From: Epilithonimonas zeae
Lineage (GTDB): Bacteria > Bacteroidota > Bacteroidia > Flavobacteriales > Weeksellaceae
NCBI RefSeq assembly: GCF_900141765.1
Contig: NZ_FSRK01000001.1
Location: forward strand, 496,001-560,000
Length of the DNA: 64,000 nt
Reading direction: 5' to 3'
The notes below the pieces were generated by a model. The model was not told the origin of the DNA and did no database searches. It saw nothing but the letters and a program-made list of their open reading frames with translations. Below are positions 7,265 to 51,024 of the stretch, piece after piece; positions within the stretch are counted from its first letter, which is position 1; every line of letters begins with the position of its first letter. Both the position numbers and the translations under genes were made by a program.

Positions 7265-7380
7265 AGGAGCTTAATCCCGCTATCCACTATATCTTTTTCA
7301 TCATTGCGAACGAAGTGAAGCAATCTTTTGAACCATTTACCCCGCAATAACAAAAAAGGATGCCGTTCCTATCGGGGCTA
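7265..7380 (+). repeat. Dispersed structured element, copy B (with nested repeat)
   Basis: AGC-TTAAT-CCCG (7268-7279) pairs with CGGG-GCT near 7373-7379. The apical stem CTTTTT (7293-7298) pairs with AAAAAG (7353-7358). Inside it lies extra sequence with ATTGCG (7303-7308) opposite CGCAAT (7343-7348), resembling an inserted second hairpin. It sits between the convergent MFS and MoxR genes. Confidence 0.75.
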
Positions 7381-7384
7381 GAAA

Positions 7385-23721: not shown

Positions 23722-23827
23722 AGGAGCTTAATCCCGCTATCCGCTATATCTTTTTTGTTTTATCAAGTTTTGTCATCAAATCCAGATTTCAACAAAACAA
23801 AAAAGGATGCCGCTACTATCGGGGCTA
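23722..23827 (+). repeat. Dispersed structured element, copy C
   Basis: AGC-TTAAT-CCCG (from 23725) pairs with CGGG-GCT (23820-23826). The apical stem CTTTTTTGTTTT (23750-23761) pairs perfectly over 12 bases with AAAACAAAAAAG (23794-23805). It lies between GH97 and the symporter gene. Confidence 0.8.
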
Positions 23828-23910
23828 TAGGTTTCCACTTCAATCAAAACTTTGTCAAGGTTAAGGCTTTGACAAAGTTTTTCTTAATTTTTTTTTCAAA
23901 ATCCTCTGAT

Positions 23911-27923: not shown

Positions 27924-29303
27924 ATGACAAAAAAAATAAAACCAAATCTCTCAATGGCTCAGATTATCAATATGAGTATGGGATTTTTGGGAATTCAAAT
28001 GGCTTTTGGTTTACAGAACGGTAATGCCAGCAGAATTTTGGCAAATCTTGGAGCGGACGTTCACGAACTATCTTGGTTTTGGCTGGTTGCGCCTGTTACA
28101 GGATTAATCGTTCAGCCGATTATTGGACATATGGGAGATAACACTTGGAGTCCATTGGGAAGAAGAAAACCATATTTTTTGATTGGTGCAGTGCTGTGTG
28201 CGATTGGATTAGTTTTACTTCCAAACGCTGCTTCTGTGACTAATCTTATCGCTGCAAATGTATTATTACTTGCGGTAATTTTCTTAGCGATGATGGATGC
28301 TTCTATCAATGTTGCAATGGAACCTTTCCGCGCTTTGGTTGGAGATATGCTTCCGAAACATCAGGGAACAATCGGGTTTTCTGTTCAGACAATTTTGATT
28401 GGAATCGGAGCTGTAATCGGTTCTTATCTTCCGGATTGGCTGACCAAATTAGGAATCTCGAATGTTGCTCCAGAGGGATTTGTAGCGGATAACGTAATTT
28501 TCTCTTTTTATGTTGGTGCAGGATTTTTGATTCTGACCATTCTTTACACGATTTTCACAACTAAGGAATATTCTCCGGAAGAATTTGCAGCTTTCGAAGA
28601 TGGGAAAGAAGTTGCAGAACCTTCCAAATTTTCAGATATATTCAAGGATTTTGCGAATATTCCGACTCAGATGAAAAGATTGGGCATTGTTCAGTTCTTC
28701 TCTTGGTTTGCACTATTTACAATGTGGGTTTTCACAACAAGTGCTTTGGCAACGCATCATTTTGGATTATCGCCGGACGATACACATTCGGAAGCGTTTA
28801 ACAATGCTGGAGATCTGACTGGGAAATTATTCGGAATGTATAATCTTTGGGCAATTCCATTTGCTTTTCTATTGACACCAATTGCTAAATTCCTTGGTAA
28901 AAAGCAAACCCACGCTTTGGCTTTGTTCTCAGGAGGTTTGGGATTGATATCGATGTATTTTATAAAAGATACGTCGTTGCTTTGGATTTCGATGATAGGA
29001 TTGGGATTTGCCTGGGCAAGCATTTTAGCAATGCCATATGCAATGTTGATAGAAGTAATTCCACAGAGAAAAATGGGGGTTTATATGGGAATTTTTAATT
29101 TCTTCATTGTAATTCCTCAAATCATTAATGGAATTTTCGGTGGACCAATTGTATCGAACATTTTTGGAAAAATGGCGATTGATTATGTTGTTGTTGGTGG
29201 AGTTTGTATGTTGATCGGTGCTGTCGTAACGATGGTTTTCATTAGATCAGAAGACGAAACTCCAAAAGAAATCGAAGAAGAAATCCAGCAGGTTCATTTT
29301 TAA
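27924..29303 (+). CDS. MFS sugar transporter, MalT/SLC45-like
   Basis: 459 residues with 12 hydrophobic helices. Loop motif GDNTWSPLGRRKPY between helices 2 and 3, an early GIQMAFGLQNGNASRIL and AMMDASINVAMEPFRALVGDM are hallmarks of the glycoside-proton symporters that import maltose or sucrose (SLC45/MalY-like group). It would move maltose or maltodextrins from periplasm to cytoplasm, completing the pathway begun by SusCD, GH13 and GH97. The start follows ATAAAACCTTAAAAATAA, the recurring lead-in of the locus. It overlaps the next start by one base (TAATG). Confidence 0.9.
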   Translation: MTKKIKPNLSMAQIINMSMGFLGIQMAFGLQNGNASRILANLGADVHELSWFWLVAPVTGLIVQPIIGHMGDNTWSPLGRRKPYFLIGAVLCAIGLVLLPNAASVTNLIAANVLLLAVIFLAMMDASINVAMEPFRALVGDMLPKHQGTIGFSVQTILIGIGAVIGSYLPDWLTKLGISNVAPEGFVADNVIFSFYVGAGFLILTILYTIFTTKEYSPEEFAAFEDGKEVAEPSKFSDIFKDFANIPTQMKRLGIVQFFSWFALFTMWVFTTSALATHHFGLSPDDTHSEAFNNAGDLTGKLFGMYNLWAIPFAFLLTPIAKFLGKKQTHALALFSGGLGLISMYFIKDTSLLWISMIGLGFAWASILAMPYAMLIEVIPQRKMGVYMGIFNFFIVIPQIINGIFGGPIVSNIFGKMAIDYVVVGGVCMLIGAVVTMVFIRSEDETPKEIEEEIQQVHF

Positions 29304-29530
29304 TGATGGTTTATAAAAAGATTCTAATATCAAGTATTTTACTGATAATTCTTTCTGTAATAATGTTTATAGTCGGAGTTAGTTTTTTTGCTTATACAGG
29401 AAACCAACTGAATCCGATAATTATTAAATTGGGAGAAATCAGTTTTGCTTTTTGGTTGCCGGCTTTGATTTTAGGAATTATTTTATTTTTTATTTCTATA
29501 ATTTTAGCAGTAATAAAGAAACCGAAATAA
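29303..29530 (+). CDS. Small two-helix membrane protein
   Basis: 75 residues; its ATG overlaps the stop of the sugar transporter (TAATG), so it is translationally coupled. Two membrane helices (about 7-30 and 45-68) are separated by a short polar loop, with a basic C-terminal end. No family recognised. The coupling suggests a small accessory subunit of, or passenger with, the transporter. Confidence 0.6.
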   Translation: MMVYKKILISSILLIILSVIMFIVGVSFFAYTGNQLNPIIIKLGEISFAFWLPALILGIILFFISIILAVIKKPK

Positions 29531-29558
29531 TATTAGAATCTATTTTTCTTATTAATAC

Positions 29559-29582
29559 AAAATCCACCAATCGGTGGATTTT
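29559..29582 (+). terminator. Terminator of the sugar transporter transcript
   Basis: AAAATCCACC (29559-29568), loop AATC, GGTGGATTTT (29573-29582), then T-rich sequence. Confidence 0.88.
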
Positions 29583-29815
29583 TCGTTTTTCTTAAATAGA
29601 ATTTGACAAAAAATTAAAATATAACACCAAAATATAAGATTCAAAGTAAAATTTTAGGCGTCGTAATTTTTTCATCTTTCATAAGTTGAAAACCAATGCC
29701 TTATGTATAGTTTTCTTTTTGATGAATATCGTAAAAATATCTATATTCTATATGTTTTTGATAGATATGAAAAGAATTTTTTGCGAAAAAACCAATGTTT
29801 ATGAAAATTAGTTTC
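29583..29815. other. AT-rich spacer before the ilv promoter
   Basis: No gene seen. It contains one 8-base inverted repeat ATATCTAT (29737-29744) / ATAGATAT (29761-29768), about 50 bases upstream of the ilv -7 box, which could be an operator or chance in AT-rich DNA. Confidence 0.3.
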
Positions 29816-29823
29816 TACATTTG
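29816..29823 (+). promoter_or_regulatory. ilv operon promoter -7 element
   Basis: TACATTTG matches TAnnTTTG exactly and lies 19 bases before the leader-peptide ATG and 184 bases before ilvE, as expected if transcription starts ahead of the attenuator. Confidence 0.65.
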
Positions 29824-29842
29824 TACCGTTCAAAACAAACAG

Positions 29843-29899
29843 ATGAATAACACAATTATTATTCTTGTCATTTCTGTCATTATCGGATTCCGGTGGTGA
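29843..29899 (+). CDS. ilv leader peptide
   Basis: ATG at 29843, 18 codons, TGA at 29897. The peptide is MNNTIIILVISVIIGFRW, with six Ile, two Val and one Leu among 18 residues. Its last codons and stop (GGTGGTGAG) overlap the 5' arm of an antiterminator. The arrangement is that of amino-acid leader peptides: a ribosome that stalls on Ile/Val codons leaves the arm free, while one that reaches the stop covers it. Confidence 0.85.
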   Translation: MNNTIIILVISVIIGFRW

Positions 29900-29966
29900 G
29901 TGATGGCTTGTGATAATTATTGAATTGAAATAATACAGACCATTCTCACCACGAGGATGGTTTTTT
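29893..29966 (+). promoter_or_regulatory. ilv transcription attenuator (antiterminator / terminator)
   Basis: Antiterminator: GTGGTGAG plus ATGG (29893-29906) pairs with CCAT plus CTCACCAC (29940-29952), 12 pairs around a TG/T internal loop. Terminator: ACCATTCTC (29939-29947), loop ACCAC, GAGGATGGT (29953-29961), then five more T. The two hairpins share 29940-29952, so only one can form. A small ATTATT/AATAAT hairpin sits between the antiterminator arms. Confidence 0.85.
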
Positions 29967-30007
29967 ATTTTCCTAAATCTAACAAACAAATATAAAATCA
30001 ATACAAA

Positions 30008-30910
30008 ATGTATTACAATGACGACAGTGTTCTCTTTTTTGATGGGGAATATGTAAAAGCAAAAGAAGCCAAGACCGACTTGTACGGTCAATCGTTACAC
30101 TACGGATATGCTGTTTTCGAAGGAATTAAATCTTACAAAACTGCGAACGGAACCAAGATTTTCAAAGCAGAAGAACATTACGACAGACTAAGAAGGTCTG
30201 CCCAAACGATGATGATGCCTTTCGATTATTCGACCGAAGAAATGGTTGAAGCAACGTACAAATTATTGGAAATTAATAATTTATCAAACGCATACATTCG
30301 CCCGTTGGTCATTTGTTCTCCAAATATGGCTCTGTCAAAAGGACAAAAAAGTTATCTCGTTATCGAGGTTTGGAATTGGGATAATGGTTATATGGCCAAT
30401 CAAATGCGAATTATGACGTCATCATTTGAACGTCCAAATCCAAAAGCTTTCAAGGTTGAAGCAAAAGTAAGCGGTCATTATGTGAACTCAATTTTGGCTT
30501 GTCAGGAAGCAAAAGACAAAGGTTTTGATGAAGCTTTGGTTCTTGACGCTGACGGAAATGTGGCAGAAAGTTCCGGCGCCAATATCTTCTTCGAGAAAGA
30601 CGGAAAACTTTTCACACCTGCAAAAGGAAGTATTCTTCCAGGAATCACAAGAGCAACAGTTTTCGAAATCTGCAACCAACTGGGAATTCCTTACGAGGAA
30701 AAATTCTTTAAACCGGAAGAAATGAAAGGCGCAGACGCTGGTTTTTTCTGCGGAACAGCGGCCGAAATCGTAGCATTAGGTTCGCTTGATGACGTTCCTT
30801 TCAAACTGAATTGGGAAGAGAGTTTAGCATCAAAAATTCAAACAGCTTACCGTCATTTGGTGTTAGAAGAAGATTATTCATACTTGAAATCAAACTTGCA
30901 ATATGTGTAA
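30008..30910 (+). CDS. ilvE: Branched-chain amino acid aminotransferase
   Basis: 300 residues. PLP-dependent fold type IV enzyme; last step of valine, leucine and isoleucine synthesis. The start region [30 protein letters not shown] and YIRPLV are typical, the PLP-binding Lys is Lys153 in [12 protein letters not shown], and [14 protein letters not shown] with SILPGITR complete the cofactor site. First structural gene of the operon, about 40 bases after the attenuator; its end overlaps the ilvD start by 8 bases. Confidence 0.95.
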
Positions 30911-32588
30911 CGTAGAACTGAACAAATATTCCAAAACCCTCACAAAAGACCCGACACAACCTGCAACTCAGGCAATGTTTTACGGAATCGGTTTTGAAGA
31001 AGAGGATTTCGACAAAGCGCAAATTGGAATCGCAAGTATGGGCTACGATGGCAACACTTGTAATATGCACCTTAATGGTTTGGCGGAGATTGTAAAAAAA
31101 GGAGTCAAAGAACAAAACTTAGTAGGATTGATGTTCCACACTATCGGTATCAGCGACGGAATGACCAATGGAACAGACGGAATGCGTTATTCGCTGGTAA
31201 GTCGCGACATTATTGCAGATTCCATCGAAGCCGTTTGTGCAGGACAATATTACGATGGATTAATTACCGTTCCGGGTTGCGACAAAAATATGCCGGGTTC
31301 TTTGATGGCAATGGCTCGTCTCGACCGTCCTTCGATAATGGTTTATGGCGGAAGTATTGCGCCCGGACATTACAAAGGTCAGGATTTGAACATCGTTTCT
31401 GCTTTCGAAGCTTTGGGAAATAAAATCGCAGGGAAAATTTCTGACGAAGATTTCAAAGGTGTGATAAAAAATTCCTGTCCAAGCGCCGGAGCGTGTGGCG
31501 GAATGTACACAGCAAACACAATGGCTTCCGCAATCGAAGCGCTCGGAATGAGTTTGCCGTATTCGTCATCTTATCCGGCTTTAAGCAAAGAGAAAAATGA
31601 AGAATGCAAATTCGCCGGTCATTACGTGAAAATCCTTTTGGAAAAAGACATCAAACCATCCGATATAATGACGCCAAAAGCTTTCGAAAATGCATTGAGG
31701 TTAATTATGATTTTAGGTGGAAGTACCAATGCGGTTCTGCATTTTATTGCGATTGCAAAATCTATCGGATACGATTTGACTTTAGATGATTTCCAAAAAA
31801 TAAGTGACGAAACACCATTTTTGGCTGACCTTAAACCAAGCGGGAAATACCTGATGGAAGACCTTCATAACGTTGGCGGTGTTCCTGCGGTGATGAAATA
31901 TCTGTTGGATTTAGGCTTACTTCACGGCGATTGCTTGACAGTAACAGGAAAAACGATTTCCGAAAATCTGGAGCACGTCACATCAATTATCGACAGAGAA
32001 CAAAATATCATTCACGATATCAAAGACCCAATCAAACCAACCGGACATATCAGAATTTTGTACGGAAATCTTGCCGAGAAAGGTTCTGTTGCGAAAATCA
32101 CAGGCAAAGAAGGCGATTATTTCAAAGGAAGAGCAATCGTTTTTGACGGCGAAAAAGAATTCATCAAAGGAATTGAAGATAAAAAAATTCAGGAAGGAAA
32201 TGTGGTTGTAATCAAAAATGAAGGTCCAAAAGGCGCACCCGGAATGCCGGAAATGTTAAAGCCAACTTCCGCTTTAATGGGGTCAGGCTTAGGTAAAAAT
32301 GTAGCATTGATTACAGACGGAAGATTTTCTGGAGGAACACACGGTTTCGTGGTTGGTCACATTACACCCGAAGCTTTTTCCGGAGGTTTGATTGGTTTAA
32401 TAAAAGACGGTGATATGATTGAATTGGATGCAGAGAAAAATACCATTAATGCACTTCTCTCGGACGAAGAAATCGCTAAAAGAAAAGCTGAGTTCCAACA
32501 ACCGGAATACAAAGTGAAACGTGGCGTACTGTACAAATACGCCAAGTCTGTAGCCGATGCATCACAAGGTTGTGTAACTGATTTATAA
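30903..32588 (+). CDS. ilvD: Dihydroxy-acid dehydratase
   Basis: 561 residues. It dehydrates dihydroxy-isovalerate and dihydroxy-methylvalerate to the keto acids. Iron-sulphur ligands are seen in [20 protein letters not shown] and [17 protein letters not shown]; other conserved blocks are [13 protein letters not shown] and [23 protein letters not shown]. Length is normal. The ATG at 30903 lies inside the last codons of ilvE, indicating translational coupling. Confidence 0.96.
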
Positions 32589-32664: not shown

Positions 32665-34407
32665 ATGAGTAATACCATTTCACAAATAGAAAATACAAAA
32701 TTAGAACAGCGGAAAACCATAGAAATATCTGGTTCCAAAGCCGTTTTAGAAGCATTGCTAGCAGAAAATGTACAAACAGTTTTCGGTTATCCGGGTGGCG
32801 CAATTATGCCAATCTACGATGCTTTATATGACTATTCCGAAAAACTGAAACATATTTTGGTTCGTCACGAGCAAGGCGCAATTCACGCAGCTCAGGGATT
32901 CGCTAGAAGCTCCGGAAAAACAGGCGTTGTATTTGCAACAAGTGGTCCGGGCGCTACCAATTTAGTAACAGGTTTGGCTGATGCTATGATAGATAGCAAT
33001 CCGATTGTCTGTATTACAGGTCAGGTTTTTGCCTCACTTTTAGGAACTGATGCTTTTCAGGAAACGGACGTCATTAACATCACAACGCCAGTCACAAAAT
33101 GGAATTATCAGGTGACTGATGCTACTGAAATTCCGGAAGCGATTGCCAAAGCATTTCACATCGCAAGCACAGGTCGTCCCGGACCGGTTTTGATTGATAT
33201 TACTAAAAATGCTCAAATACAATTATTCGAATATTTGGGTTATAAAAAATGTAATCATATTAGAAGTTATCGTCCCGAACCGGAAATCAGACCCGAATAT
33301 ATTGAGCAAGCGGCGGAACTAATTAATCAAGCAAAAAAACCATTTGTTGTTTTCGGACAAGGTGTGATTTTAGGGAAAGCGGAAGAAGAATTTAAAGCGT
33401 TTATTGAAAAGGCAAATATTCCCGCAGCAGCAACTGTAATGGGATTGAGTGCTCTTCCAACCAATCATAAATTACACGTAGGAATGTTAGGAATGCACGG
33501 CAATTATGCACCAAACGTAATGACCAACGAATGTGATGTTCTGATTGCCGTCGGTATGCGTTTCGATGACCGAGTTACGGGACGGTTAGACAAATATGCG
33601 AAACAAGCAAAGATTATCCACCTGGATATTGACCCAGCCGAAATCGATAAAAATGTGAAAACCACAGTGCCGGTTTGGGGAAATTGCAAAAAGACTTTAC
33701 CAATGTTAACTGCGCTTCTTAACGAAAGTGACCATTCAGCTTGGTTAAATGAATTTCGAGAACTGGAAAAAGAAGAAATCAAAGAAGTTATTCAGGAAGA
33801 ACTCAATCCCACATCTGAAGTTTTGACTATGGGAGAGGTCATCAAAGTTCTGAATGATTTGACTAATGGCGACGCCATCATTGCAACAGACGTTGGTCAA
33901 CACCAAATGGTCACTTGCCGATATGCGAAATTCAATAATTCAAAATCCAGCGTAACATCGGGCGGTTTGGGAACAATGGGATTTGGTTTGCCGGCAGCCA
34001 TTGGAGCTTGGTATGGTGCACCTGAAAAAACGGTTGTTGCCATTATCGGAGACGGCGGATTCCAAATGACGTTGCAGGAATTGGGAACCATTATGCAGTT
34101 TGGAGCCAAGGTCAAAATTATGATTCTAAACAACGAATTCCTTGGAATGGTAAGACAGTGGCAGCAATTGTTCAACGAAAGACGCTATTCTTTCGTGAAT
34201 ATTACAAGCCCGGATTTCGTTGCAGTTGCCAAAGCTTATTACATCGATGGACAAAGGATTTCTGAAAGAGAAAATTTAAAACCTGCTTTGGAAACAATGC
34301 TAAATCACGACGGCGCCTATCTTTTGGAAGTAATGGTTGGAAAAGAAAATAACGTTTTTCCAATGGTAGCACAAGGAACTTCGGTTTCAGAAATCAGACT
34401 TAAATAA
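32665..34407 (+). CDS. ilvB: Acetolactate synthase large subunit
   Basis: 580 residues. It condenses pyruvate with pyruvate or 2-ketobutyrate. TPP site: VRHEQGAIHAAQG with the catalytic Glu, and the GDGGFQMTLQEL...ILNN motif near residue 470. FAD/central domain: KPFVVFGQGVILG. The C-terminal FLGMVRQWQQLF block is typical of AHAS. Seven bases separate it from the regulatory subunit gene. Confidence 0.96.
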   Translation: MSNTISQIENTKLEQRKTIEISGSKAVLEALLAENVQTVFGYPGGAIMPIYDALYDYSEKLKHILVRHEQGAIHAAQGFARSSGKTGVVFATSGPGATNLVTGLADAMIDSNPIVCITGQVFASLLGTDAFQETDVINITTPVTKWNYQVTDATEIPEAIAKAFHIASTGRPGPVLIDITKNAQIQLFEYLGYKKCNHIRSYRPEPEIRPEYIEQAAELINQAKKPFVVFGQGVILGKAEEEFKAFIEKANIPAAATVMGLSALPTNHKLHVGMLGMHGNYAPNVMTNECDVLIAVGMRFDDRVTGRLDKYAKQAKIIHLDIDPAEIDKNVKTTVPVWGNCKKTLPMLTALLNESDHSAWLNEFRELEKEEIKEVIQEELNPTSEVLTMGEVIKVLNDLTNGDAIIATDVGQHQMVTCRYAKFNNSKSSVTSGGLGTMGFGLPAAIGAWYGAPEKTVVAIIGDGGFQMTLQELGTIMQFGAKVKIMILNNEFLGMVRQWQQLFNERRYSFVNITSPDFVAVAKAYYIDGQRISERENLKPALETMLNHDGAYLLEVMVGKENNVFPMVAQGTSVSEIRLK

Positions 34408-34414
34408 AATACAA

Positions 34415-35005
34415 ATGGAAAAACAAGAATTTACCATCACATTATACACCGAAAATTCTGTTGGATTAATCGGCAGAATTTCAGGGATATTTTCACGAAG
34501 AAAAATCAATATTGAGAGTTTGAATACATCTCCTTCGGAAGTGGAAGGCATTCATAGATTTACAATTCTCATTAATGAAACTAAAGAAGTCGTAAGAAAA
34601 CTTTGTCGACAGCTCGAGAAGCAGATTGACATTATGAAGGCTTATTTCAATACAGATGATGAGATTGTCTGGCAAGAGCAGGCACTTTACAAAGTCCCCG
34701 CAAATGTGATTACAGAGAAAGTTTATGTAGAAAGATTGCTTCGTCAGTACGGCGCATCCACAGTTGTGATTCGTCAGGATTATATCGTTTTCGAAACCGC
34801 TGGTCATCGTGAAGAAATTGACCGATTAACGGAAGAACTCAACAAATATGGTCTCATAGAATTTGTACGAGGTGCAAGAATCGCCATCATCAAAAACAGC
34901 AGAGGAATCCACGACAAAGTCCTCGAGTTCGAAAGGAGAGAACCTTCTCCTGAACTTATAGAGAATGAATATCTCGACAAACGAGACGACGTTTTCACAA
35001 TGTAA
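34415..35005 (+). CDS. ilvN: Acetolactate synthase small (regulatory) subunit
   Basis: 196 residues. An N-terminal ACT domain (TLYTENSVGLIGRISGIFSRRKINIESL) that binds valine for feedback control is followed by the AHAS small-subunit C-terminal domain (VYVERLLRQYGASTVVIRQDY; LIEFVRGARIAIIKN). Cotranscribed directly behind the large subunit. Slightly longer than short IlvH forms because of an acidic tail. Confidence 0.94.
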   Translation: MEKQEFTITLYTENSVGLIGRISGIFSRRKINIESLNTSPSEVEGIHRFTILINETKEVVRKLCRQLEKQIDIMKAYFNTDDEIVWQEQALYKVPANVITEKVYVERLLRQYGASTVVIRQDYIVFETAGHREEIDRLTEELNKYGLIEFVRGARIAIIKNSRGIHDKVLEFERREPSPELIENEYLDKRDDVFTM

Positions 35006-35100: not shown

Positions 35101-36582
35101 ATGGCAAATTATTTCAATACCTTATCACTCAGAGACCAGTTGTACCAGTTAGGACAGGCAGATTTTATGGACAGTTCAGAGTTTTCTGATGGTGTTTCCG
35201 CTTTGAAAGGGAAAAAAATTGTGGTTGTAGGATGTGGCGCTCAAGGTCTGAATCAAGGTTTGAATCTAAGAGACAGCGGACTGGATGTTTCCTATGCTTT
35301 GCGTCAAGAAGCAATCGACCAAAAGAGAGATTCCTGGAAAAATGCAACCGACAATAATTTCAAAGTAGGCACTTATGAAGAACTGATTCCAACTGCGGAT
35401 TTGGTTATCAATTTAACACCCGACAAACAGCATACTTCAGTAATCAATGCCGTTCAACCTTTGATGAAACAGGGCGCAACTTTGTCCTATTCTCACGGGT
35501 TCAATATCGTGGAAGAAGGAATGCAAATTCGTAAAGATATCACGGTAATTATGGTTGCTCCAAAGTGTCCGGGTTCCGAAGTTCGCGCCGAATATCTGCG
35601 TGGTTTTGGTGTTCCAACTTTGATTGCCGTTCACCCAGAAAATGACCCTCAAGGAAAAGGTTGGGCAGAAGCAAAAGCTTATTGCGTAGGAACTGGCGGT
35701 CACAAAGCCGGCGTTTTGAAATCCTCTTTCGTAGCAGAAGTGAAGTCCGATTTGATGGGCGAGCAGACCATTTTATGTGGACTTTTGCAAACGGGTTCAA
35801 TCCTTTCTTTCGACAAAATGGTGGAGAAAGGAATCGATGCAGGTTACGCTTCCAAATTGGTTCAGTACGGTGTTGAAGTTATCACAGAAGCTTTGAAACA
35901 CGGCGGCGTGAGCGGAATGTTAGACAGACTTTCCAATCCTGCAAAGCTTAAAGCTTTTGAATTGTCAGAAGAATTGAAAGACATTATGCGTCCACTTTTC
36001 CAAAAACATCAAGACGATATCATCTCTGGCGAATTTTCCAAAACAATGATGGAAGATTGGGCAAACGGCGATAAAAACCTTTTGAAATGGCGAGCGGAAA
36101 CAGGAGAAACTGCTTTCGAAAAAACACCTGCTGGAGATGTGAAAATAGATGAACAGGACTATTTTGACAATTATCTTTTGATGTTGGCCTTCATCCGAGC
36201 GGGTGTTGAACTGGCTTTCGAAACAATGATTGAAGCCGGAATCAAACCGGAATCCGCTTATTACGAATCACTTCACGAAACCCCTTTGATTGCCAATACC
36301 ATAGCCAGAAAAAAATTGTTCGAAATGAACCGTGTGATTTCCGACACCGCAGAATACGGATGTTACCTTTTCGACCAGGCTTGCAAACCTTTGCTGGCGG
36401 ATTTTATGAAATCAGTCGATACAAATTTGGTAGGTAAAAACTATAACGAAGGCAAAAAAGCTTCGGTTGACAACGCCCAATTGGTTCACGTGAACGATAT
36501 TTTGAGAAATCATCCCGTAGAAATTGTTGGCAGAAAATTGCGTCAGGCAATGACCGCGATGAAGTCTATTAAAACAGTTTAA
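35101..36582 (+). CDS. ilvC: Ketol-acid reductoisomerase, class II (long form)
   Basis: 493 residues, matching the long E. coli-type enzyme rather than the 330-residue class I form common in bacteria. Rossmann motif [23 protein letters not shown] with downstream basic residues for NADPH, then two consecutive knotted helical domains containing the metal-binding Asp/Glu residues ([45 protein letters not shown]). It isomerises and reduces acetohydroxy acids. Followed by two intergenic repeats, so readthrough to ilvA is not certain. Confidence 0.95.
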
Positions 36583-36882: not shown

Positions 36883-38376
36883 ATGTCAACTCCAATAATA
36901 AAAATTTCAAACCTCAATTTTCAATACGGCGACCAAGTCATACTGAAAGATTTAAACTGGGAAATATCTTCCGGAGAATGTTGGATGTTAGGCGGATTAA
37001 GCGGAAGTGGAAAAACGACTTTAGCCAAAATTATTTCAGGAGAAATCAAGAATTTTGAAGGAAAAGTTGAGATTAATTTTAATGAAAATTCAAAGTTACC
37101 AAAGAAAGTTCTGTATGCTTCCAATTGGTTTCAGTTCAGCAATCTGGAAGGTGACCGAAATTTTTATTATCAACAGCGATATAATCAATTCGCTAAAAAT
37201 GATACACTAACTGTTTTTGCAGAAATGAATCATTTCAGAAAAGAAGAAAATCTGGATTTCAGAATATTAGAATCTTATTTAGAACCGTTTGGATTTGAAA
37301 ATTTTAAAAATCAGCAATTAATAGAATTGTCGAGTGGCGAACACAAGAAATTACAATTGTTAAAAGCACTTTGGCTAAAACCTCAGATTTTGATTATAGA
37401 CCAGCCTTACACAGGTTTGGATGTCAAATCAAGACAGTTTTTGAATCAGGCTTTTGATAATTTAATTAAAGAAAATGTCATTTTGATTTTAATTAATAAT
37501 GATGACGAATATCCGGAAAGTGTTCAGTATTTTGTTGAAATAGAAAATGGGAAATTAATTCACAAAAATTCACCAAAAGACTTTTCAAAAGGCGAAGAAA
37601 GAACACCAAAATCGCTTCCTTTTTTTCTTCAAAATAATCAGGAAAACGAACAGGAAAGTCTCATCAAACTAGAAAATATCAATATTTCTTACGGCGAAAA
37701 ACAAGTCCTTAAAAATATCTATTGGGAAGTCAATATGGGTGAACGATGGCTGTTGCAAGGTCCTAACGGTTCGGGGAAATCTACTTTGTTGAGTTTGTTA
37801 AATGGCGACCATCCTCAAGCTTATTCCAATGAAATATATCTTTTCGGAAAAAAGCGGGGAAGTGGTGAAAGTATTTGGGATATCAAAGAAAAAATCGGAA
37901 TGATTTCGCCCGAATTACACTGGTATTTTGATATGAATGCGAATGTCGGACAAACCATTGCTTCCGGTTTTTTTGATTCGATGTCATTATATCAGAAACT
38001 GAGTTTTAATCAGCAACAGCAATTAGATCAGATTCTTTATTTCTTCGATTTAAAAGAAGATAAAAATAAGAAGTTAAATACTTTACCACTTGGAAAACAA
38101 CGTTTGGCTTTACTCGCAAGAACATTGATTAAAAAACCAAAACTTCTGATTCTGGATGAACCTTGTCAGGGAATGGATAACGAACAGACGCAATATTTCA
38201 ATCAAGTCATTGATGATTTGTCAATTCAGGGACAATCGTTGATTTACGTCGGACATTTTGAATCTCAATTACCAAAAAAACTCAGTCACAAACTTGTTCT
38301 GGAAAACGGAATAATGAAAATTAATAATCGAGTAGAATTAAAAGTATTGAAGGATAATTTACTCTCGCAGATTTAG
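36883..38376 (+). CDS. Double-ABC ATPase (ModF-like) inside the ilv operon
   Basis: 497 residues from the ATG at 36883; a TTG seven codons earlier lies in repeat text and is rejected. Two full ATPase domains: Walker A GGLSGSGKTT, signature LSSGEHKK and Walker B LIIDQPYTGLD in the first; GPNGSGKSTL, a weak signature LPLGKQRLA and LLILDEPCQGMD in the second. No membrane segment. The plan is that of ModF/soluble ABC proteins, whose role is unclear. It is placed between ilvC and ilvA. Its last codons (LLSQI) and stop are made of repeat sequence that continues downstream. Confidence 0.85.
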   Translation: MSTPIIKISNLNFQYGDQVILKDLNWEISSGECWMLGGLSGSGKTTLAKIISGEIKNFEGKVEINFNENSKLPKKVLYASNWFQFSNLEGDRNFYYQQRYNQFAKNDTLTVFAEMNHFRKEENLDFRILESYLEPFGFENFKNQQLIELSSGEHKKLQLLKALWLKPQILIIDQPYTGLDVKSRQFLNQAFDNLIKENVILILINNDDEYPESVQYFVEIENGKLIHKNSPKDFSKGEERTPKSLPFFLQNNQENEQESLIKLENINISYGEKQVLKNIYWEVNMGERWLLQGPNGSGKSTLLSLLNGDHPQAYSNEIYLFGKKRGSGESIWDIKEKIGMISPELHWYFDMNANVGQTIASGFFDSMSLYQKLSFNQQQQLDQILYFFDLKEDKNKKLNTLPLGKQRLALLARTLIKKPKLLILDEPCQGMDNEQTQYFNQVIDDLSIQGQSLIYVGHFESQLPKKLSHKLVLENGIMKINNRVELKVLKDNLLSQI

Positions 38377-38481: not shown

Positions 38482-39750
38482 ATGAAGATGAATGAAACGC
38501 TGATATTTCCAACCTTGGAAGCGGTAAAAGAAGCCCGAAAAAGTATAGAAAATGTCGTGAATTATACGCCTTTGCAATACAATTCTCGATTGTCGGAAAA
38601 ATTTGGTGCAAATATTTTCCTGAAAAGAGAAGATTTGCAACCTGTAAGGTCGTACAAGTTGCGAGGTGCTTACAATAAAATCAAAACTCTATTTAATGAA
38701 GGCAAAGTTTCACAAGGAATAGTTTGTGCAAGTGCGGGAAATCACGCTCAAGGTGTGGCTTTTTCCTGTAAACAACTTCAAATTAAAGGAACGATTTTTA
38801 TGCCGGTCACGACGCCAAAGCAGAAATTGGAACAAGTCGAAATGTTTGGTGGAAATTACGCTGAAATCCGATTGGTTGGCGATACTTTTGACGCGTCAAA
38901 AACGGCGGCTTTTGAGTTTGCGGAAACTTCCGGGGCTGCTTTTATTCATCCTTTTGATGATGTTCAGATTATAGAAGGTCAGGCAACTTTGGCTTTGGAA
39001 ATTTTGGAACAACAAAAAGAAAATATAGATTATGTTTTCATTCCAATTGGCGGCGGCGGTTTGGCTTCCGGAATTGCAACGGTTTTTGGTAAATTGTCAA
39101 AAGAAACTAAATTGATTGGCGTAGAGCCAAAAGGCGCACCTTCGATGAGATTGTCCATTCAAAATGATATCAATACAGAGTTGTCGGAAGTCGATAGTTT
39201 TGTTGATGGAGCAGCAGTTAAAAGAGTAGGAGATTTGACTTTTGAGATTTGCAGAAACTCGCTTGCAGATTGCATTCCTGTGGATGAAGGGAAGGTTTGT
39301 GATACGATTCTTCAGTTGTATAACAAAGACGCAATTGTTTTGGAGCCTGCCGGAGCGCTTTCTATTTCCGCTTTGGAACAATATCGAAATCAGATTAAAG
39401 GAAAAAATGTGGTTTGCATCGTCAGTGGAAGTAACAACGACATTACGAGAATGGAGGAAATCAAAGAACGCGCTTTGCTTTACAATGGTTTGAAACATTA
39501 TTTTATGGTCAAATTTCCGCAGCGTCCAGGTTCTCTGAAAGATTTCGTTCTGAATGTTCTGGGCTCAAATGACGACATCACTCATTTCGAATATACCAAG
39601 AAAAATTCAAGGGAAACCGCTTTGGCAATCGTCGGAATCGAACTTTCCAATATTTCTGATTTTATTGGTTTGAAACAAAGAATGAAAGAGCTTGGTTATT
39701 TCGAATCTTATTTGAATGATAATCCTGATGTGTTGAGTATGCTTGTTTAA
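38482..39750 (+). CDS. ilvA: Threonine dehydratase, biosynthetic
   Basis: 422 residues. It converts threonine to 2-ketobutyrate, the entry to isoleucine. The PLP Lys is in VRSYKLRGAYNK; the glycine-rich phosphate loop is PIGGGGLASGI. The C-terminal 90 residues (HYFMVKFPQRPGSLKDFVLNVL) form one ACT-like regulatory domain, the single-domain form of biosynthetic threonine dehydratases. Start at 38482; a second ATG two codons later is equally usable. Last gene of the ilv cluster. Confidence 0.94.
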   Translation: MKMNETLIFPTLEAVKEARKSIENVVNYTPLQYNSRLSEKFGANIFLKREDLQPVRSYKLRGAYNKIKTLFNEGKVSQGIVCASAGNHAQGVAFSCKQLQIKGTIFMPVTTPKQKLEQVEMFGGNYAEIRLVGDTFDASKTAAFEFAETSGAAFIHPFDDVQIIEGQATLALEILEQQKENIDYVFIPIGGGGLASGIATVFGKLSKETKLIGVEPKGAPSMRLSIQNDINTELSEVDSFVDGAAVKRVGDLTFEICRNSLADCIPVDEGKVCDTILQLYNKDAIVLEPAGALSISALEQYRNQIKGKNVVCIVSGSNNDITRMEEIKERALLYNGLKHYFMVKFPQRPGSLKDFVLNVLGSNDDITHFEYTKKNSRETALAIVGIELSNISDFIGLKQRMKELGYFESYLNDNPDVLSMLV

Positions 39751-50897: not shown

Positions 50898-50977
50898 GAG
50901 CTTAATCCCGCTATCCACTATATCTTTTTCTTTTTTTTGCCAAAAAAAGAAAAAGGATGCCGCTACTATCGGGGCTA
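50898..50977 (+). repeat. Dispersed structured element, copy E
   Basis: AGC-TTAAT-CCCG pairs with CGGG-GCT. The apical stem CTTTTTCTTTTTTT (50924-50937) pairs perfectly over 14 bases with AAAAAAAGAAAAAG (50942-50955), a different sequence from copy C. Both neighbouring genes are on the minus strand, so here the element opposes them. Confidence 0.8.
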
Positions 50978-51024
50978 TAGGATTTGTCAGTCAATCAACT
51001 CTTGTATTTCAATATGAAATAAAG

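Follow-up and report, generated by a model that had tools for sequence, protein, structure and literature searches.

A putative isoleucine/valine leader-peptide attenuator conserved upstream of the ilv operon of Epilithonimonas zeae, and a predicted tandem form in a sister genus

Ribosome-mediated attenuation is a textbook mechanism of transcriptional control, known from the ilvGMEDA, trp, his, thr and phe operons of enterobacteria, and its classical form requires that the first ribosome follow RNA polymerase closely. For Bacillus, ribosome and polymerase have been reported to run uncoupled, and Bacteroidota make little use of Shine-Dalgarno-led initiation. According to the available excerpt of PMC9723704, transcriptome mapping in Flavobacterium psychrophilum gave 'strong clues' of leader-peptide attenuation in amino-acid operons; small ORFs reminiscent of leader peptides appear for Bacteroides in an excerpt of PMC7366714, and PMC4833913 refers to a comparative analysis of bacterial attenuation from 2010 (doi 10.1134/S0026893310010164). 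Tandem attenuators are described, in the excerpt of PMC3641672, for the Salmonella mgtCBR operon, where they respond to two signals (ATP and proline) through stem-loops unlike intrinsic terminators. Among the matches listed by a full-text search, whose scope leaves most subscription papers outside, no title or abstract opening names an ilv leader in Bacteroidota.

The stretch of E. zeae DNA analysed here (64 kb, hereafter the window) carries on its plus strand an ilv operon with the genes ilvE (branched-chain aminotransferase, the operon's first gene, 30008-30910), ilvD (dihydroxy-acid dehydratase, 30903-32588), ilvB (acetolactate synthase large subunit, 32665-34407), ilvN (acetolactate synthase small subunit, 34415-35005) and ilvC (ketol-acid reductoisomerase, 35101-36582), and further on ilvA (threonine ammonia-lyase, 38482-39750). 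All of these proteins score over the NCBIfam cut-offs (TIGR00119 for ilvN), and the best named relatives of the ilvE protein are those of Epilithonimonas lactis (99% identity) and E. hungarica (98%). The interval between ilvC and ilvA contains a gene for a ModF-like double ABC ATPase (36886-38376), which scores under its family cut-off. Upstream of ilvE, a transporter gene ends at 29303 and is followed by a separate terminator-like hairpin detected in a consensus scan (29559-29582, plus strand).

An 18-codon ORF, MNNTIIILVISVIIGFRW, occupies positions 29843-29899 of the plus strand, from an ATG at 29843 to a TGA stop codon at 29897-29899. It contains six Ile, two Val and one Leu codons, so that half of the codons (9/18) of this short ORF specify Ile, Val or Leu, upstream of ilvEDBNC. 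The ATG stands 19 bases after a TAnnTTTG box (TACATTTG, 29816-29823, plus strand), a motif which we take to be the Bacteroidota promoter consensus; it is the sole box of this type on the plus strand between 29304 and 30010, and a transcript start may be predicted a few bases past it, at about 29828-29830. The distance from box to ATG is 16-21 nt in the window and in 26 relatives (L031-L055 and L057). No Shine-Dalgarno-like sequence was seen upstream of the leader ORF. The sequence-only reading of this DNA had described the ORF, its codon content, its distance from the box and its stop at 29899, and all of these proved exact.

The RNA downstream can form three stems from four segments, all on the plus strand. 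Segment 2 (29890-29907), which extends over the leader's final codons and its stop, provides the 5' arm of an antiterminator in which 29893-29900 and 29903-29906 pair with 29940-29952 in segment 3 (29939-29952; 12 pairs). Segment 3 is also the 5' arm of an intrinsic terminator located between the ORF and ilvE, in which 29939-29947 pair with 29953-29961 of segment 4 (nine pairs, -11.3 kcal/mol); segment 4 and the T run that follows span 29953-29966, and the T run ends 41 nt upstream of the ilvE start. Both stems had been reported at exactly these positions by the sequence-only reading, which held that every part of classical attenuation was present but overlooked the stem that completes the classical set of three, a protector hairpin of 16 pairs. 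In this hairpin, segment 1 (29867-29886), i.e., two stretches of codons Val9-Gly15 comprising Val9-Ile10 (29867-29872) and most of Val12-Gly15 (29877-29886), pairs with 29890-29899 and 29902-29907 of segment 2. The antiterminator thus excludes the terminator and is itself excluded by the protector hairpin. The region folds with a z-score of -4.0, and one of 200 dinucleotide shuffles folds equally well. Terminator-like hairpins number 43 on both strands of the window, and only two are preceded by a short ORF rich in Ile, Val or Leu; the second of these ORFs is the C-terminal end of the transporter gene.

A ribosome covering 12 nt beyond the first base of the A-site codon was set on each leader codon in turn, and we folded the RNA that lies downstream of it. 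For the window, the probability of the terminator is 1.00 at codons 1-4, 0.74 at Ile5, 0.25 at Ile6, 0.14 at Ile7, 0.13 at Leu8, 0.00 from Val9 to Ile13 and 0.02 at Ile14; it is 0.98 at Gly15, 1.00 from Phe16 to the stop and 0.996 without a ribosome. The computed structure therefore depends on the position of the ribosome, with an antitermination interval (Ile6-Ile14) in which eight of the nine codons specify Ile, Val or Leu and whose limits shift by at most two codons across footprints of 9-16 nt. The first Ile codon, Ile5, falls on the border of this interval, so that a ribosome stalled on it would induce poorly. When the stretch before the terminator was replaced by 500 dinucleotide shuffles, 40 of them had any open codon, and three had at least six open codons with both ends closed. 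Across 59 scanned leaders (66 loci were given, seven of which had no candidate), Ile, Val or Leu account for 196 of the 238 codons at open positions versus 510 of 1278 at closed ones.

At equilibrium, an open interval exists in 26 of the 28 near leaders (the window and L031-L057; none in L053 and L055) and in half (13/26) of the distant ones (L064-L092, from Chitinophagaceae and others), among which L068 is largely unterminated even without a ribosome; L005 and L013 are open as well, and L009, L011 and L012 have no open codon. The scan thus agrees with the earlier proposal that stalling allows readthrough and full translation leads to termination, less clearly so in distant relatives. If the nascent RNA is considered instead, ending before segment 4, some codon is open in all 28 near and all 26 distant leaders, and the stop is closed in 27 and 26 of them, respectively; this measure is open at early codons too and thus supports only a switch that closes after the last Ile/Val codons. 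In the nascent RNA without a ribosome, ending just before segment 4, the antiterminator is favoured over the protector hairpin at equilibrium (P 0.99 versus 0.22), so that termination in the absence of a ribosome would require, kinetically, that the protector hairpin form before segment 3 appears.

Relatives had been named as the place where the proposal could fail, through loss of the ORF or of the pairing, and both turned out to be kept. In an alignment of the window with 29 relatives (30 rows, 29 of them distinct), 95.0% of the cells are paired in the antiterminator, 99.2% in the terminator and 96.5% in the protector hairpin, with three, four and three pairs, respectively, changed on both sides; sliding the partner by 1-3 columns lowers the paired share to 35.4-51.1%, 36.6-61.3% and 31.5-73.0%. 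None of 500 shuffles per stem matched the observed share of paired cells, a result that related sequences can give without structure. Covariation is weaker against some of the controls: 13 of 500 shuffles equalled or exceeded the antiterminator's count of pairs with both sides changed, the number of pair types in the protector hairpin was matched by 476 of 500, and for this hairpin a slide of +3 yields six pairs changed on both sides versus three in the true register. Of the three stems, the terminator passes the controls best.

The leader itself varies, with insertions of whole codons in some relatives. It is altered by whole codons in L052 and L055-L057, and in L048 and L050-L053 one extra base near its end shifts the frame and moves the stop downstream, segment 2 being kept. 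In L058 and L059, leader and terminator are kept but displaced, the stop codon lying 493 and 548 nt before ilvE, and in L061 the corresponding stretch has, by eye, GTG instead of ATG as a possible start. Leader and terminator are found several hundred bases upstream of ilvE in these three loci and in L210 and L187. In L059 and L061, the terminator is followed by a stretch resembling an ilvE start (ATGTATTACAACAAAAAATT), which may be what is left of an ilvE that was duplicated or replaced.

A covariance model of the element, R1, finds a single strong match in the E. zeae genome, at this site (E 7e-27); the next best has an E value of 0.02, and the weak matches in this genome (L182-L185) are by appearance ordinary gene-end terminators. 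At E 0.001, R1 has matches in 7 of the 28 genera of the family (62 of 246 genomes), and in 15 of 21 genomes of the own genus. A leuA match was found in 13 of 20 genomes of this genus, and among the genomes included in both searches all 12 with leuA match R1 and all six lacking it (G037, G273, G281, G299, G330 and G336) have no match, so that leader and branched-chain pathway occur together in this genus.

In Chitinophaga and others, ilvE is preceded by leaders that resemble this one in design and differ from it in sequence. The Chitinophaga loci (L064-L089) carry GGAGG in the leader-end arm of the antiterminator and often ACCTCC or CCTCC just before the leader ATG; judging from the letters, these two stretches could pair with each other. 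For L062, L063, L083 and L090, no unit was found by our rule within 1000 nt, an ORF rich in Val and Ile being present nonetheless in L083. In a survey of the class, 197 genomes were searched, 144 of which had no ilvD match at all, and all close ilvD matches (42 stretches, taken before ilvD or the genes upstream of it) were considered; a candidate occurs in at most 20 of the 42 sense stretches, our locus included, versus one of 42 antisense stretches. The figure of 20 is an upper count, since at least six of these candidates (L094-L096, L109, L110 and L113) resemble other ORFs.

Comparable leaders precede other amino-acid genes of the same genome. The hisG gene has a leader with five His in a row, MTTQFMHHHHHFLAQTGR, and a terminator (L292), and trpE has a leader with three Trp in a row, MNTKNWWWLSNSLSGLKGLSVF, also with a terminator (L308). 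Within the genus, a leader with at least four consecutive His and a terminator is present at 16 of 16 hisG loci, and a three-Trp leader with a terminator at 18 of 20 trpE loci. From these arrangements, attenuation looks like a general strategy in this genome, covering ilv, his and trp. The same rule detected no Ile/Val/Leu leader before leuA at the 13 loci of the own genus. In another genus of the family, Ile/Leu-rich leaders with terminators lie directly before leuA-like genes in L172 and L180, the gene being named by eye.

We propose that the element is a ribosome-mediated transcription attenuator sensing charged tRNA-Ile and tRNA-Val, a reading to which we give a probability of about 0.93. 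RNA polymerase would start near 29830 and the leader ORF would be translated. With ample Ile and Val, the ribosome would reach Gly15 to the stop and cover segment 2, segment 3 would pair with segment 4, and transcription would end in the T run by 29966. If Ile or Val were short, the ribosome would stall within Ile6-Ile14 and disrupt the protector hairpin, leaving segment 2 bare; the antiterminator would then form before segment 4 exists and allow readthrough into ilvE-ilvD-ilvB-ilvN-ilvC. If no ribosome were loaded, the protector hairpin would be expected to form first, and then the terminator. Of this scheme, the analysis shows the component elements, their conservation, the way they exclude one another and the effect of ribosome position in the folding computations; use of the promoter, leader translation, stalling, folding order and the magnitude of the response are inferred.

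Three other explanations were weighed against this one. The leader peptide is short and very hydrophobic, and the ORF could in principle encode a functional small peptide, acting at the membrane or like a type I toxin, with the hairpins as an ordinary terminator. We regard this as very improbable, since the peptide sequence varies widely between clades where its position, its Ile/Val content and the terminator stay constant, since hisG and trpE of the same genus have His- and Trp-rich counterparts, and since the stop moves by the frame change described above in L048 and L050-L053 with segment 2 retained. The strong structure of the leader region would also suit an attenuator read by a riboswitch, a T-box or an RNA-binding protein, or a control of translation initiation at ilvE. 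This is equally improbable in our estimation: no Rfam family reaches its gathering score at the element, the best being Phe_leader (RF01859) with a sub-threshold full-length match of 32.5 bits against a gathering score of 55 (E 0.0013 in a 501-base search), and neither a T-box nor another Rfam cis-regulator was found at the gathering cut-off in the window. The Rfam matches of the window at gathering scores are four Flavo-1 RNAs (RF01705) elsewhere, all on the minus strand (1797-1883, 7269-7383, 23726-23830 and 50900-50980). The enrichment of Ile, Val and Leu among the open codons of the 59 leaders argues against this explanation as well, as do the 41 nt that separate the end of the T run from the ilvE start.

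Those same 41 nt are A+T-rich and could hold a promoter of another type, in which case the terminator would be constitutive and ilvE transcribed from downstream of the hairpin. They contain no TAnnTTTG box, the sole one on the plus strand in 29304-30010 being that before the leader; moreover, the upstream gene has its own terminator-like hairpin, and conservation of segments 1 and 2 would be unexpected if the terminator were constitutive. We therefore hold this explanation to be the least probable of the three, and the ribosome-mediated attenuator remains our preferred reading of the locus.

A doubled version of this architecture is present in a sister genus, taken as Chryseobacterium (128 genomes, 91 with a close ilvE, 88 upstream stretches examined). 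Two Ile/Val leader-terminator units stand in series before ilvE in 62 of the 88 stretches. A leader of a second type (..VIIIVIIIPL..) with a terminator occurs in 61 stretches (among them L261, L242 and L258), and all 61 also have, just upstream, a first leader of the MNFTNQKNIIVIS.. type with its own terminator; the 62nd locus, L259, was missed by the sequence pattern that found the others. The stretch L274 has a different type of tandem, and the remaining 25 have one leader in 23 cases and none in L208, whose genome has an R1 match near its ilvE, and L213, which is cut by a contig end. The tandem type of L274, MYNSIIISSIII.. followed by ..NNTIIISIIISSPP or alike, is found in L177, L181 and L274, and L130 also has two units. 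In the 61 loci, terminator 1 is separated from the second ATG by 14-34 nt, and in 56 of them the first ATG comes 4 nt after the end of a promoter-like box, which suggests that the first leader is leaderless or nearly so.

In an alignment of the 61 tandem loci, 95.9% of the cells are paired in the antiterminator of unit 1 and 99.8% in that of unit 2, which is nearly invariant; the terminator of unit 1 has 99.6% of its cells paired, with all 14 cells changed on both sides located at one pair. No covariation was detected in the tandem antiterminators of this alignment (none of their pairs has both sides changed, and all 500 shuffles are at least as high). The equilibrium scan finds an open position in 13 (unit 1) and 14 (unit 2) of the 61 loci, and the stop closed in 59 and 61. 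After this mostly closed equilibrium result we chose nascent RNA as the measure for the tandem loci; it tests how the switch closes, not how it opens. By this measure each unit has some open codon in all 61 loci, and the stop is closed in 58 (unit 1) and 61 (unit 2). The working of the tandem would thus rest on its architecture and on co-transcriptional order, and not on equilibrium folding.

The tandem would be a new variant and is the part of these results that a specialist would not expect. We lean towards the view that the window carries one version of a widespread, uncatalogued group of Ile/Val attenuators in Bacteroidota, of which the Chryseobacterium form would be a series gate: a single transcript, leaderless in that its first leader ORF lies at or next to the 5' end, would carry two ribosome-read attenuators that respond to the same amino acids and have separate intrinsic terminators. 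If so, polymerase would have to pass both gates, starvation would elicit a steeper response than a single gate does, and leading ribosomes would pace RNA polymerase closely in this phylum. The doubled attenuator could then serve as a natural experiment on how a response is shaped when one signal acts through two gates in series. More generally, the locus supplies a conserved Bacteroidota attenuator with comparative support, and what appears to be the same device stands before ilv, his and trp genes in one genome. Attenuation needs closeness of ribosome and polymerase, so that widespread leader attenuators in Bacteroidota would make coupling directly testable there.

Very probably, then, the window contains an attenuator of known mechanism, without an Rfam family, conserved in a phylum where such control is little documented. 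The sequence-only reading had presented it as a clean Bacteroidota example of a control best documented elsewhere; it stands as a conserved case, and its novelty is lower than supposed, as leader attenuation is already suggested in the excerpt of the F. psychrophilum paper (PMC9723704). That paper concerns the same phylum and amino-acid operons; its excerpt names no ilv leader and contains no comparative test. With the enterobacterial attenuators, the element shares an ORF rich in codons for the end products, the three alternative stems (1:2, 2:3 and 3:4), an intrinsic terminator and a position before a biosynthetic operon; unlike them, it shows a Bacteroidota-type box, no visible Shine-Dalgarno-like sequence and no Rfam match at the cut-off. 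It is not a member of Phe_leader (RF01859), given its score below the gathering threshold, and its codons are those for Ile and Val and its operon is ilv. In the Chryseobacterium form and in Salmonella mgtCBR (as excerpted in PMC3641672) alike, a single operon is preceded by two consecutive leader ORFs; mgtCBR senses ATP and proline, whereas Ile/Val codons are found in both Chryseobacterium units, and these have separate intrinsic terminators.
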